A DNA stretch of 37,146 nucleotides. It comes from a bacterium (GTDB lineage Bacteria > Patescibacteriota > Minisyncoccia > Phycocordibacterales > UBA2100). Shown here one piece after another: positions 16,894 through 26,456 of this stretch. Each line of letters begins with the position of its first letter. Position 1 is the stretch's first letter. A program made the position numbers and the translations under genes. The notes beneath the pieces are model-generated. The model did not search any database and was not told the DNA's origin. It saw only the letters and a list, made by a program, of their open reading frames with translations. The stretch spans positions 1 to 37,146 of the forward strand of contig JAUSHX010000015.1 in assembly GCA_030648265.1 (NCBI GenBank), written 5' to 3'.

Positions 16894-16942
16894 TCTATTC
16901 AAATATGCAATTGCGTCGAGCGACGCTCCACTTGTCTCTCAG

Positions 16943-17026
16943 TGCCGGGAGAGGGACTCGAACCCTCACGACCTTTCGGTCACATCATCTTAAGTGATGC
17001 GCGTAAACCAATTCCGCCATCCCGGC
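16943..17026 (-). tRNA. tRNA-Leu (anticodon UAA)
   Basis: All stems fold exactly: acceptor GCCGGGA/TCCCGGC with A73, D-arm GCG/CGC, anticodon arm CATCA-CTTAAGA-TGATG, a long variable arm GACC-GAAA-GGTC, and T-arm GAGGG-TTCGAGT-CCCTC. CCA is not encoded. The first 47 nt also encode the end of the upstream HNH nuclease on the same strand. Confidence 0.95.
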
Positions 17027-17501
17027 TTTTATTTTTCAAGTTCCTGCCGCGGTGTGTGGGCTGAAGGCTATGACAATTCGGACAAAGAACTCGCAGGTTC
17101 TCTAAGCGATTATCATGTCTGTTTCCATTGATATGGTCAAGCTCCAGAGGCAGGCGACCATCTGCGGAATACTGAGCCCATCCGCACATTTCACACTCCG
17201 TTTTCTTTAACTTTTCGGAAAACAAACGAGCCTTAAGTTTATAGCTTTGGTACCGACTACTTTGTACCAGGATTTCATTTAGTGGAACCAACGGTTTAAA
17301 GGGAAACTTCATACCTCTCGACCATCCGCGTCCAGTAAAATGCGAAGTATCAAACAAGTTTTCTTGTATATACTTACGCAATTGGTCATAGTTCCCGCCA
17401 GCGGGAACTAATCCCAACTTCAAAATGACCTGGCCCATGCTTCTTGAAGACGCGACAGCTTCCCTCAACTGCTCAATTGTCCAGCGTCTTTTCCGGTTCA
17501 C
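16980..17501 (-). CDS. HNH endonuclease running into tRNA-Leu
   Basis: A 173-residue HNH nuclease of the type found as free-standing homing endonucleases in phages and CPR genomes. Zinc Cys pairs (C103/C106, C140/C143) flank the catalytic LELDHINGNRHDNRLENL core (D122-H123, N131 region). The N-terminal part resembles an HTH-like module with SRSMGQVILKLGLV. Its last 16 codons are read from the 5' half of tRNA-Leu and the TGA lies in the variable-arm region. Start is GTG 17501: TTGTAT, 17 nt, TACAAT, then 6 nt to the GTG, so it appears leaderless. A perfect 10-bp-arm palindrome (17389-17410) lies inside the coding region. Confidence 0.88.
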   Translation of the reverse strand: MNRKRRWTIEQLREAVASSRSMGQVILKLGLVPAGGNYDQLRKYIQENLFDTSHFTGRGWSRGMKFPFKPLVPLNEILVQSSRYQSYKLKARLFSEKLKKTECEMCGWAQYSADGRLPLELDHINGNRHDNRLENLRVLCPNCHSLQPTHRGRNLKNKSRDGGIGLRASLKMM

Positions 17502-22034: not shown

Positions 22035-24746
22035 ATGGTTCCATTCAACAATTACACGACTAAAGCGAAAGAATCTGTGCACCGCGCACATCAGCTTGCG
22101 GTTGAACGCGGCCACAACCAAGTTTCCACACTGCATCTCTTGGCTGCGCTTCTCACGCAGGAGGAGTCCATGGTTCTCCCGATGCTTGAGCAAGTAGAAG
22201 TTGATGTCGTTCACCTTACCGATTCCGTGCTTGAACTCATTGAAGGAAGCGGAGGAGGGAATACCATATCCCCTTCATTCCAACTGTACTTGACGCCGGA
22301 GCTCGTGAAAGTCTTTGAGGCAGTCCCGCGGATAGCCGCAAGTTTCAACGACCAGTTTGTTTCGCCGGAACATCTTCTTTTGGGAGTGGCGGAAAATCCG
22401 GGGCCGGCAGCCGACATACTTACGAGATTTCGCGTGGATCGTGCCGCCCTCGCGCGCGTGCTTACGGACATTAAAGAAGGGAAGATACGCGACATTGACG
22501 AGCCGAAAAAGCCCCGTGCGCTTACGCGGTTTGCCCGTTCGCTCACAGACCGCGCCCGCGAAAATAAATTAGACCCGGTCATCGGGCGGAATATGGAGAT
22601 TACGCGCGTCATTCAGATACTCTCACGCCGTACCAAAAATAATCCGATTTTGATAGGAGAGGCAGGAGTCGGAAAGACCGCGGTTGCGGAAGGGCTGGCA
22701 CAGCAGCTTGCCTCGGGCGATGTGCCGGAATCTTTGCGCGGCAAGGATCTCGTACAGCTTGACCTAGGGCTTCTCATTGCCGGCACAAAGTATCGTGGAG
22801 AATTTGAAGAGCGGCTGAAAGCAGTGATGCGGGAAGTTGAGCGCTCGGAAGGAAAAATAATTCTTTTCATTGACGAAATGCATACACTTGTGGGTGCGGG
22901 AGCCGCCGAAGGGTCAATGGACGCATCCAATATGCTGAAGCCCGCTCTTGCGCGCGGCGATATCCGCGTTATCGGCGCGACAACGCTCAAGGAGTTTCAG
23001 AGACATATTGAACACGACCCCGCGCTCACGCGCAGATTCCAGCCTGTGTACGTGAATGAACCTTCACAGGACGACGCAATCGCGATTTTGCGCGGTCTTA
23101 AAGAACGGTACGAGCTGTTCCATGGCGTGCGAATTACGGACGATGCTATCGTTGCGGCGGTTCAGCTTTCTATCCGCTACATCACAGAACGTTTTCTACC
23201 GGACAAGGCAATTGATTTGATAGACGAAGCTTCATCGGCCTTGCGCCTCTCGCTTGAGAACAAACCGCCCGCGCTTGAAGAAGCGCAGCGCAAGATTATG
23301 CGTTTGGAAATTGAACGGGAGGCATTGAAAAAGGAATCGGAAGAAAGCGACGGCAAGGCGCGTACGCGCGTGAGGGCGATAGAAAAAGAAGTCGCTGACT
23401 TGAAAGACGGTACGCGCGAGCTTGAGCTCAAATGGAAAAATGAGCGCGAAACCATCGCAGAAATCAAGCGCGCGAAGGGCGACCTTGAGAAGGCGCGCAT
23501 TGAAGCGGATGCGGCGGAAGCGATAGCAGACCTCACAAAAACGGCTGAAATTCGCTACGGCAAAATTCCGCTCCTGGAAAAGGAAATTGAAGCTGCGGCG
23601 AAGCGTTTGAAGAAACTACAAGCAACTCGGCGTGTTCTCAAGGAGGAAATCACAGAAGAAGATATTGCCGGAGTCGTGTCCCGTTGGACCGGCGTTCCCA
23701 TAACGCGCATGCTTGAGGAAGAGGCGGAGAAGCTTTCCAGAATGGAGGAGGAGCTGAAGAAGCGCATCGTCGGCCAGGACGAAGCGTTGCAAAAAGTTTC
23801 AGATGCTATCAAGCGAAGCCGCGCCGGTATTGCCGACCCGAATCGCCCAGTGGGCAGTTTCCTGTTTTTGGGTCCGACCGGAGTAGGCAAGACCGAGCTT
23901 ACGCGGGCGCTCGCAGATTTCCTTTTCAACAGCGACAAGGCGCTCATTCGCGTTGACATGTCAGAATACATGGAGAAACATTCCGTATCTAAGATGATTG
24001 GCTCGCCGCCAGGATATGTGGGACACGACGAAGGCGGGGGGTTAACGGAACTTGTGCGGCATAGGCCCTACTCCGTTGTTCTATTTGATGAGATAGAAAA
24101 AGCGCATTCGGAAGTGTTTAATATTCTGCTTCAGGTCTTGGACAACGGAAGATTGACGGATGCAAAAGGCCGCATTGTAAACTTCAAGAACACCGTTATC
24201 ATCATGACCTCAAACATCGGCTCCGAACACATAGACAAGATGTCCAGTCTTGGCTTCGGGAGCGAATCGCACGGAAGCGAGAGCGATAGGTATGAAAAAG
24301 TCAAAGAGAAGGTGATGAGTTCGCTCAAAGAATTCTTCCGTCCGGAATTCCTGAATCGTCTGGATGAAATCGTTCTCTTCAATATACTTTCTCCGGATGC
24401 GGTGAAAGATATTGTGCGCATGCAAATAGACATAATCGCCAAACGACTTCAAGAAAAGCAAATCACACTTACATTCTCGGACGCCGTGCTTGTGCACCTG
24501 GCAAAAGAAGGTTACAGCTCGCAGTATGGCGCGCGACCTCTTAAGCGTTTGATGCAAACGAAAATACTTACTCCAATCGCCAACATGATGGTTTCCAGAA
24601 ATGTGATGGAGGGTGGCTCGGTCCACGTTGATGTCAAGCAGGGTGCAGAGGTCACACAGCCCGCGGAATTTGTATTTGATGTTCGCAGAGGAGCCGTTCG
24701 CAAGCGCGGAGCGCGTGCTCGCGCAAAATCCGCTGTTGGTGTTTGA
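22035..24746 (+). CDS. clpB: ClpB-type disaggregase ATPase
   Basis: Hsp100 ATPase that extracts proteins from aggregates. The order is an N-domain (1-150), AAA1 with Walker A GEAGVGKT (208-215) and Walker [10 protein letters not shown], a long charged coiled-coil middle domain (about 410-540) of ClpB type, AAA2 with Walker A GPTGVGKT (near 612) and [11 protein letters not shown], and a C-terminal small domain. No IGL/IGF loop for ClpP was spotted, which also favours ClpB over ClpC/A. At 903 residues it is slightly long. The start ATG has TAATCT (22023-22028) 6 nt upstream and no Shine-Dalgarno. The C-terminus ends in a basic Arg/Ala tail. Confidence 0.92.
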
Positions 24747-24830
24747 TGTTTTGATGATGCAGAGGGAAGCGCTTCTCTTGTTCACAGTATCAAAGTGGTC
24801 AATTGCGATAATCCACAATAATATGAACAT

Positions 24831-25646
24831 GTGGCAAAGAAGTGGACAAAATCGGAAGAGGATAGATATGGTTCGGAGTTACGTACGCTGTATATTAGTC
24901 AAAATAAAACCATCAGTGAAGTCGGATTGATATTGAACATTGCTCCGCAAACAGTCTTTAGCCGCTTACACCGTCTCGGTATTCCTACATGTCGCGAAAA
25001 GAAGTTGTTCGTTAACAATCAGCGAAAGGATATAATCTTGCCTAAGACACGTTCAGCTACTCTGGCAGAACTTCTCGGCGTTCTGTTAGGCGATGGACAT
25101 ATCAGTCATTTCCAAGTTATTATTACTTTGGGGAGTAAGGAACTCAAATATGCACATCATGTAAGTTCGCTTTTGAAAAATGTGTTTGGAAAGAAGCCCA
25201 AGATTAGCGTACGAAGTACCGGATATCGAGACGTGTACCTTGGCTCAACAGCCATTACCAGTTGGTTGATGCGCGAGGGATTGGTCTCAAACAAAGTCGA
25301 GGATCAAGTTGATGCTCCACTATGGATATTCAAAAAGCGGGAATATATGATTGCTTTTTTGCGCGGATTTTTTGATACAGACGGTTCTATCTATAAGTTG
25401 AAATATGGAATACAATTATCTTTTACTAACAAGTCTCTGCCGCTTTTATATTCTTTACAGAAGATGCTAAGAGCGTTAGGATACGCAGCATCGGCAATGA
25501 GCGCGTACCGTGTGTATGTCACGAGAGTCTCAGAGGTGGAGAGATTTTTTCGAGAGATAAAACCGGCAAATGCGAAGCATCAGCGCCGATTTAGTGAGTT
25601 CATTAGGCGCGTCGGTACTCAAGCGGTCAACGAGGATGCGCTGTAG
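24831..25646 (+). CDS. LAGLIDADG homing endonuclease running into tRNA-Tyr
   Basis: A 271-residue protein with two LAGLIDADG helices, LLGVLLGDG (81-89) and FLRGFFDTDG (176-185), each keeping the acidic metal ligand, so it could act as a monomeric double-motif enzyme. An N-terminal helix-turn-helix (about 29-51) resembles a resolvase or sigma-like DNA-binding motif. Its last 12 codons lie in tRNA-Tyr and its TAG stop overlaps the GTA anticodon. The GTG start at 24831 has TAATAT (24819-24824) 6 nt upstream. It is not inside an intron or intein: the tRNA and clpB are both intact. Neighbouring 97-residue ORF begins right after the tRNA. Confidence 0.9.
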   Translation: MAKKWTKSEEDRYGSELRTLYISQNKTISEVGLILNIAPQTVFSRLHRLGIPTCREKKLFVNNQRKDIILPKTRSATLAELLGVLLGDGHISHFQVIITLGSKELKYAHHVSSLLKNVFGKKPKISVRSTGYRDVYLGSTAITSWLMREGLVSNKVEDQVDAPLWIFKKREYMIAFLRGFFDTDGSIYKLKYGIQLSFTNKSLPLLYSLQKMLRALGYAASAMSAYRVYVTRVSEVERFFREIKPANAKHQRRFSEFIRRVGTQAVNEDAL

Positions 25647-25692
25647 ACGCATTGGCCTTTGGCCTACGCAGGTTCGAATCCTGCCCGGCGCA
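25609..25692 (+). tRNA. tRNA-Tyr (anticodon GUA)
   Basis: Acceptor GCGTCGG/CCGGCGC (one G-U pair) with A73, D-stem CTC/GAG, anticodon arm ATGCG-CTGTAGA-CGCAT, long variable arm GGCC-TTT-GGCC, T-arm GCAGG-TTCGAAT-CCTGC. CCA is not encoded. The first 38 nt also encode the C-terminus of the LAGLIDADG nuclease. Confidence 0.95.
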
Positions 25693-25694
25693 CA

Positions 25695-25988
25695 ATGAAA
25701 TTGAAAAATGACAGATATAAAAAAGTGCGAGGAGGATATTCTCGGCTCTTTCATATTTCTTGTCAGAAGTGCGGTGCGGCAATCTGTAGGTATCAAAAGG
25801 ATGGTTCGGGAAATTTGCGCCGAATGTATTTGGACCGAATCTCAAAAGCGAAAGTCTCTCTTGCTAGAAAAGATATAACTTGCCCAAAGGGACACTTACT
25901 GGGAGTCAAAATAATATATGAAAAAGAGAAGAGACCGGCTTTTAGATTATTTGTGGATTCTATAACAAGGAAAATAATCAAAGCATGA
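25695..25988 (+). CDS. Hypothetical zinc-ribbon-like protein, 97 residues
   Basis: The ATG begins 2 nt after the mature 3' end of tRNA-Tyr, with no Shine-Dalgarno or promoter, so it must be read from the tRNA precursor; tRNA 3' processing would give a CA-ATG message. The protein is basic, with CQKCGAAIC and a later CPKGH, four possible zinc ligands, and otherwise no recognised domain (RLFHIS, KKVRGGY). It starts MKLKND, close to MKFPPK in the other post-tRNA ORF, though the rest is unrelated. Confidence 0.6.
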   Translation: MKLKNDRYKKVRGGYSRLFHISCQKCGAAICRYQKDGSGNLRRMYLDRISKAKVSLARKDITCPKGHLLGVKIIYEKEKRPAFRLFVDSITRKIIKA

Positions 25989-26015
25989 GTGAGCGTCTGG
26001 TTTCACCTGAATTAA

Positions 26016-26456
26016 ATGACCTTCCCCACGCATATCCTAGCGGGACTCGTCATAGGGAAGTTGACGGGGGATTATACGGCGGCGCTCACGGGCTCCTTGT
26101 TCATGGATTTGGACCACCTCATTTCATATCACCAGAATGGAATATTGTTTAAACCGCGAGCGATACTGCATGAAAGCCTAACAGAAAAGGACCCGTGGGG
26201 AAGCCAAAAAAACATTTTTCACAGTGTGCAGGCGTGGGCTATTATTTCACTTCTGGTGGTGGCGCTTAACCTGCATTTCGGGCTTATTTTCTCTCTGGCC
26301 TACTTTGTCCATTTGTCTTTAGACGCGCTCAACGGAGACGTGTACCCGTTTTATCCGTACAAAAAGTTCCAAATAAAGAAACCGATAATACGCTATCTCT
26401 CAAAGAAAGAGGCTATACTCGGTGTGAGCCTGCTACTTCTATTTCTTATAGCTTAA
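26016..26456 (+). CDS. YdjM/DUF457-like membrane-bound metal hydrolase
   Basis: A 146-residue membrane protein with PTHILAGLVIGKL at the start and MDLDHLISY soon after, the His and Asp/His pattern of the YdjM-type (LexA-regulated, DUF457) family, plus later HESL, FHSVQAW and HLSLDALNGD His/Asp motifs. Hydrophobic helices lie at about 5-30, 70-100 and 130-146. The family is presumed to be metal-dependent membrane hydrolases, with the substrate unknown. The stop codon is the first three bases of a TAAATGCA/TGCATTTA hairpin. Confidence 0.7.
   Translation: MTFPTHILAGLVIGKLTGDYTAALTGSLFMDLDHLISYHQNGILFKPRAILHESLTEKDPWGSQKNIFHSVQAWAIISLLVVALNLHFGLIFSLAYFVHLSLDALNGDVYPFYPYKKFQIKKPIIRYLSKKEAILGVSLLLLFLIA

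Follow-up and report, generated by a model that had tools for sequence, protein, structure and literature searches.

The open reading frame (ORF) that runs into the tRNA-Tyr gene of the window, the whole 37,146-nt stretch of DNA that was analysed, is probably a mobile element that encodes a homing endonuclease and is specialised for a tRNA gene. Sequence comparisons favour, with good confidence, a model in which the element would have inserted inside the tRNA gene and brought along a substitute 5' part that rebuilt the tRNA. The features of the locus, and of a second nuclease locus in the window, are the following:

22035-24746, plus strand: clpB, the upstream gene, which the nuclease separates from tRNA-Tyr.
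24787-24810, plus strand: displaced fragment of a tRNA-Tyr D-arm, GTATCAAAGTGGTCAATTGCGATA, ahead of the nuclease start.
24831-25646, plus strand: LAGLIDADG homing-endonuclease ORF with GTG start, 271 codons and both catalytic motifs intact (LLGDG, DTDG).
25609-25693, plus strand: tRNA-Tyr(GTA), complete according to ARAGORN.
25609-25646, plus strand: overlap of ORF and tRNA-Tyr, 38 nt, encoding the last 12 nuclease residues, which are predicted to be disordered.
16980-17501, minus strand: HNH endonuclease ORF, 173 aa, identified by a profile match.
16942-17026, minus strand: tRNA-Leu(TAA), found by ARAGORN and overlapped by the HNH ORF over 47 nt.

ARAGORN places the anticodon of the tRNA-Tyr at tRNA position 35 (25643-25645), and Rfam recognises an ordinary complete tRNA (52.3 bits, 25609-25692). 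Both programs thus agree with the initial annotation, which had called the tRNA complete. The coordinates of the overlap hold as well: the ORF enters the tRNA by 38 nt, and its TAG stop codon (25644-25646) consists of the two anticodon bases TA (tRNA positions 35-36) and G37. The gene is the sole tRNA-Tyr match in this assembly and has a D-arm of a recoded type, CTCAAGCGGTCAACGAGG. An intron-encoded endonuclease was rejected because the tRNA is contiguous and complete; in the region 24400-26100, Rfam detected the tRNA and one sub-threshold match, and neither a group I intron nor any other RNA element above the threshold. An intein endonuclease was rejected too, because the nuclease is a stand-alone ORF with no host protein around it; inteins elsewhere in the genus are located within ORFs of >1000 aa. 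A 109-aa ORF (25659-25988, plus strand) starts inside the tRNA-Tyr; it has no Pfam match and shows weak similarity to sequences downstream of tRNA-Tyr in L048 and L055.

Profile searches assigned the window ORF to LAGLIDADG_3 (E 1.5e-18, 67.3 bits against a cut-off of 22.5) and gave no GIY-YIG match. The catalytic aspartates of the two LAGLIDADG motifs (D88 in LLGDG and D184 in DTDG) are invariant in 25 aligned sequences. An AF2 model with a mean pLDDT of 90 predicts a homing-endonuclease fold, which matches I-Tsp061I (E 8e-10), I-DmoI (E 1e-7) and also VMA intein endonucleases. I-Tsp061I and I-DmoI, which share 19-20% identity with the window nuclease, are the best free-enzyme fold matches; they are archaeal endonucleases encoded in introns. 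The LAGLIDADG transcription factor WhiA is also among the fold relatives; the WhiA domain models scored below their cut-offs (21.6 vs 23.2 and 18.4 vs 23.4 bits).

The position 5' of a tRNA gene is shared by nearly all relatives of the window nuclease. Using tblastn, matches to the window protein were found in 23 of 70 same-family genomes; nearly all of these matches lie at a tRNA, and tRNA-Tyr-associated copies occur in only 4 of the 70 genomes. Moreover, when about 85,000 species genomes were scanned with an alignment, 381 relatives emerged, of which the best 80 were examined. In 74 of these 80, ARAGORN detected a same-strand tRNA immediately downstream of the nuclease (25 Tyr, 47 Ser and 2 Gln), the Ser anticodons being GCT (25), CGA (16), GGA (4), TGA (1) and ACT (1). 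The exceptions were read by eye. One nuclease precedes a tRNA-Ser that is partly masked with N (L101), and three nucleases of DPANN archaea (L118, L128, L142) lie 5' of Gln-like, apparently intron-containing tRNAs, which ARAGORN misses with default settings; Rfam confirms the tRNA at L118. At L088 a tRNA-Tyr lies on the opposite strand beside the 5' end of the nuclease, and at L103 neither ARAGORN nor reading by eye revealed a tRNA beside the nuclease. After this reading, a same-strand tRNA directly follows the nuclease in 78 of the best 80 of the 381 relatives (25 Tyr, 48 Ser and 5 Gln or Gln-like), and the hosts of these nucleases are Patescibacteria, Omnitrophota and DPANN archaea. The end of the nuclease domain marks the beginning of the intact tRNA.

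The HNH ORF of the window, to which the initial annotation had drawn attention as a second case, indeed overlaps the tRNA-Leu(TAA) by 47 nt. Of its family matches, 20 of 21 are located directly 5' of a tRNA, that is, Leu(TAA) in 4, Ser(TGA) in 7, Thr(CGT) in 7 and His(GTG) in 2 cases; all four nucleases at Leu(TAA), including the relatives L198-L200, overlap the tRNA by 47 nt. As a control, viral LAGLIDADG relatives were retrieved from viral contigs by an alignment-based search, and none of the 46 lies beside a tRNA. Neither a phage search with the window protein nor a single-protein query against viral contigs found relatives. In small, tightly packed genomes, a neighbouring ORF could extend into a tRNA by chance, since spurious ORF/tRNA overlaps are common and TAA or TAG is built into GTA followed by a purine. 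However, this explanation is refuted by the survey counts and has a negligible probability: the position of these nucleases is not due to chance, because 78 of 80 LAGLIDADG and 20 of 21 HNH relatives share it as compared to 0 of 46 viral ones, in genomes that are mostly metagenome bins and at loci that are related, the counts being no independent trials. Thus, the proposal that two unrelated nuclease families occupy the same strict position 5' of tRNAs without introns was borne out by the surveys of both families, in which the enrichment is overwhelming.

On a nuclease tree with 88 members, 3 changes suffice for the amino-acid label of the tRNA and 12 for the full tRNA label, as compared to 50.5 with shuffled labels. 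Therefore, each clade keeps its own tRNA across hosts. Such strict specificity, together with a putative co-transcription, the weak WhiA similarity and the WhiA fold match, would also suit a domesticated LAGLIDADG protein that serves as a host regulator or RNA-processing factor of its tRNA rather than a mobile nuclease. We consider this very improbable, because the protein is patchily present (23 of 70 family genomes, tRNA-Tyr-associated in only 4), the catalytic aspartates are intact in both motifs, the WhiA models remain below their cut-offs and the unrelated HNH family behaves alike.

Both tRNAs with an overlapping nuclease in the window belong to class II, and in the LAGLIDADG clade of the window nuclease 73 of the best 80 of the 381 relatives are at Tyr or Ser tRNAs. 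The tRNA-Ser genes, which had been named as candidate hosts at the outset, thus account for 48 of these 80 loci. The long variable arm could therefore attract the nucleases and the stop codon in the anticodon could be functional, as the initial annotation had implied. As a general rule, this was refuted by a genus survey with PF14528, from which inteins and the loci already seen were left out, and by the HNH survey. Nucleases of the genus survey lie 5' of Asp(GTC) (8), Leu(CAG/TAG) (5), Cys (2) and Gln (1) and 3' of Lys(TTT) (7), Leu (3) and Met (2) tRNAs, and 8 LAGLIDADG_3 genes are not at a tRNA. One of the nucleases at tRNA-Asp, L002, is the second LAGLIDADG_3 gene of this genome. Class I tRNAs are common hosts: Asp, Lys, Gln, Cys and Met for LAGLIDADG_3 enzymes, Thr (7) and His (2) for HNH enzymes. 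Furthermore, the position of the stop codon follows the reading frame, and the tRNA fragments described below indicate the D-arm or the anticodon loop and not the variable arm. Attraction by the variable arm is thus highly improbable, and the bias towards Tyr and Ser is a property of the clade to which the window nuclease belongs.

The survey also uncovered nucleases on the other side of tRNA genes. In seven same-genus genomes (L227, L231, L233, L235, L238, L253, L256), a LAGLIDADG_3 gene starts 0-2 nt past the 3' end of tRNA-Lys(TTT), which is the mirror arrangement of the position 5' of a tRNA; no displaced 3' end was found behind these nucleases. At L017, L018, L019 and L250, a tRNA-Leu(CAA) is followed by a LAGLIDADG gene, and the near-identity of the tRNAs in the four genomes suggests that tRNA and nuclease move together. 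Behind the ORF of L018 (2125-2217), the remainder of a tRNA 3' end, CCCTCCTCCGGCACCA, is present, which matches a different Leu allele.

According to the initial annotation, the identity of the tRNA itself ends the nuclease, and neither can mutate freely. The relatives do not agree with this view. Overlaps in the Tyr clade amount to 15, 18, 31-39, 54, 61 nt and more; about 10 of 26 ORFs stop at the anticodon, 8 at tRNA nt 13-15 and the rest elsewhere. Overlaps of 37-39 nt end at the anticodon because GTA followed by a purine provides TAA or TAG in one frame, and an overlap of 15 nt ends in the D-arm. Nucleases at Ser(CGA) often overlap by 24 nt, and the majority of those at Ser(GCT) stop 3-22 nt ahead of the tRNA. 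Overlaps of >150 nt (L072, L075) are unreliable, and the L072 match has an internal stop codon. The stop codon in the anticodon is thus a by-product of the reading frame and one of several frame outcomes, the ORF ending at whichever in-frame stop codon the tRNA offers. Moreover, the tail encoded by the tRNA (about residues 260-271) is the sole poorly predicted part of the AF2 model, with pLDDT values falling from 58 to 43. Since the frame also differs between relatives, the tail looks incidental, which does not fit with a mutual constraint on nuclease and tRNA.

Most nucleases of the Tyr clade carry a copy of the 5' part of the tRNA itself just before or at their start, and Asp, Leu, Ser and Gln examples have such a copy in the same place. 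Reading the 75 nt upstream of the Tyr-clade starts revealed a recurring tRNA-Tyr D-arm: at least 8 positions of its 10-nt core are matched in 20 of 26 upstream regions as compared to 3.8% of shuffles, and a local-alignment test against dinucleotide shuffles, performed per locus, likewise gave p <= 0.05 for 20 of 26 Tyr loci. The fragments have a mean identity of 0.63 to nuclease-free tRNA-Tyr and of 0.48 to their own downstream tRNA, and in 19 of the 20 Tyr loci with a fragment it is closer to the nuclease-free allele; the nuclease-free control tRNAs come from one genus, and the fragment tests rely on short matches. The fragment of the window (p 0.03 alone), which the initial annotation had missed, is also nearer to nuclease-free tRNA-Tyr than to the tRNA downstream. 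It suggests that the element sits inside a tRNA gene; of the initially proposed parking of nucleases 5' of tRNA genes, the shared position without introns stood, and the parking beside a tRNA would give way to an insertion inside it. A repeat search with the downstream tRNA itself found no remnant, and the fragment appears only against nuclease-free alleles: the former search is blind because the 5' part of the downstream tRNA is recoded. Indeed, the core AGYGGTCAAT is present in 13 of 28 nuclease-free and in 3 of 26 nuclease-bearing tRNA-Tyr genes (p 0.007).

The fragments at other tRNAs vary in extent. For Asp, they reach from the D-loop through the anticodon at 7 loci, with identities of 0.64-0.79 to nuclease-free tRNA-Asp against shuffled maxima of 0.53-0.60; 6 of the 7 are closer to the nuclease-free allele than to their own tRNA and one is a tie. 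For Leu(CAG) and Leu(TAG), the anticodon marks the end of the fragments. In the HNH loci at Ser(TGA), a -10-like box precedes the fragment, and the start codon lies within the fragment or next to it; at the HNH locus of the window itself no convincing Leu fragment was found, and one was seen in the relative L198 only. The case for Ser in the LAGLIDADG clade is based on individual examples: 8 of 47 loci were significant in the shuffle test with the reference pool used, and start-anchored scores for Ser(GCT) were just slightly above the null. A clear fragment is absent in 6 of 26 Tyr loci and in many Ser loci. In six Ser(GCT) loci (L115, L120, L123, L126, L134, L141), which have a common N-terminus MAES/MVES, the start codon seems to lie inside a displaced tRNA-Ser D-arm, ATGGCTGAGTCG. 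At L113 (2412-2457), a tRNA-Ser fragment of 46 nt, whose anticodon is TGA, is located upstream of a nuclease at tRNA-Ser(CGA), and another Ser gene may have been an earlier target. In L002, L247, L251 and L252, the Asp fragment is preceded at constant spacing by a DnaA box-like stretch, TATCCACA, and a short CCAC-N4-GTGG hairpin, which could possibly be part of an operator or promoter.

Most Tyr and Asp fragments have kept the D-arm but no longer have the acceptor strand. This is expected for a selected binding site, and WhiA as a fold relative of the nuclease would fit as well with homing to the promoter/tRNA junction without replacement of any tRNA part, the D-arm copy being an evolved autoregulatory operator that mimics the target. 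However, in several fragments the first nucleotide is tRNA nt 1 and the acceptor strand is present (L084, L128 and the Ser copies at L094, L104, L107 and L135). For instance, the fragment GGGCAGGTAGCGAAGTGGTCAATTGC of L084 still has GGGCAGG, the acceptor strand of the L084 tRNA, and TAGCCCCGTGGTGTA ahead of the archaeal nuclease L128 is identical to the tRNA behind it. Moreover, the Asp and Leu fragments reach the anticodon, L018 has a displaced 3' end behind a nuclease on the 3' side, and the downstream tRNA is recoded. Displacement is therefore needed, and a purely regulatory origin of the copy is unlikely; a displaced piece may later have been used as an operator.

The proposed insertion inside the tRNA gene can also be viewed from the nuclease-free genomes. 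In most same-genus genomes without the nuclease, clpB adjoins tRNA-Tyr; at these syntenic empty sites, no more than about 20 nt separate a -10-like box from the tRNA-Tyr that it precedes. There is no space for a promoter between the window ORF and tRNA-Tyr; a promoter scan detected weak sites inside the ORF, from which the tRNA may be transcribed. No near-identical pair of a filled and an empty site was found, and the exact insertion ends are thus putative. G000 and its nearest relative G054 can be aligned to the end of clpB and not from clpB to tRNA-Tyr, and a global DNA alignment of both around clpB/tRNA-Tyr gave no clean insertion ends. The tRNA-Asp of G054 has no nuclease, yet it has the same 5' type as that of G000; therefore, the 5' type is not always coupled to the nuclease.

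Cleavage, homing and resistance, which we infer from the position, specificity, displaced fragment, recoding and intact motifs and fold described above, would proceed as follows. The nuclease would recognise and cut the tRNA gene, in the D-arm for Tyr, Ser and Gln and in the anticodon loop for Asp and Leu, as suggested by the ends of the fragments. Repair of the break would copy in the element, that is, the nuclease gene and a substitute tRNA 5' part, which would join the remaining 3' part of the host gene to give a complete tRNA, and the old 5' part would stay in front of the nuclease. The recoded D-arm of the substitute and the split target would render the rebuilt tRNA resistant to cutting. 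Nuclease and tRNA would be co-transcribed, probably from the old tRNA promoter, and in overlapping cases the ORF would lose its stop codon through the RNase P cut at the tRNA 5' end, which would limit translation of the nuclease.

Integrative elements also insert into tRNA genes and rebuild them with a copied end, usually the 3' end, by means of an integrase. The elements described here resemble them in rebuilding a tRNA gene with a copied end, but consist of one nuclease ORF without an integrase. The closest described logic is that of the fungal mitochondrial mORFs, known from atp6 of Allomyces and from atp6, atp9, cox2 and nad3 of Glomus, in which an endonuclease gene inserts together with a foreign gene end, giving a hybrid gene and displacing the native end (PMC3630166). 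Both hallmarks, a displaced native end across the nuclease ORF and a differing end on the functional gene, are found here as well. However, mORFs reside in mitochondrial protein genes, of which they replace the C-terminal (3') end (PMC3630166), whereas the hosts here are bacterial and archaeal tRNA genes that are mostly altered in their 5' part, and HNH as well as LAGLIDADG enzymes are involved. Like other free-standing homing endonucleases, SegB of phage T4 has no intron, and it also lies beside tRNA genes; according to the portion of the source considered here, it is a GIY-YIG enzyme encoded between tRNA genes that targets a tRNA intergenic region, and that portion describes neither an overlap with the tRNA nor a displaced tRNA end (PMC2988022). 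The window nuclease differs from it in belonging to LAGLIDADG_3. LAGLIDADG endonucleases of CPR bacteria such as I-ShaI, which belong to the same superfamily and host group, are encoded within insertion sequences of rRNA genes, and the word tRNA is absent from the main text of that report (PMC11270868); the window nuclease, in contrast, is located at a tRNA without an intron. No earlier description of such elements at tRNA genes was found in the open-access texts searched.

Taken further, the loci would represent a widespread convergent class of minimal mobile elements, a reading to which we incline with some reserve. Each would consist of one LAGLIDADG or HNH gene and a substitute piece of tRNA. 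In CPR bacteria, Omnitrophota and DPANN archaea, the elements would home into essential tRNA genes that are present in a single copy, at the D-arm or the anticodon loop; they would continually swap tRNA parts, and their nucleases would be expressed under the control of tRNA transcription and RNase P. If this is true, the swapping of tRNA parts and the RNase P control of the overlapping mRNA would be directly testable, and a large natural set of nucleases with predictable tRNA-gene targets would be at hand. The elements would also account for several features of CPR and DPANN genomes, namely odd tRNA D-arms, 'ORFs overlapping tRNAs' and scattered tRNA fragments. Essential and often single-copy tRNA genes would then be recurrent landing sites for selfish nucleases, which would need neither an intron nor an integrase because the element repairs the gene that it has broken.
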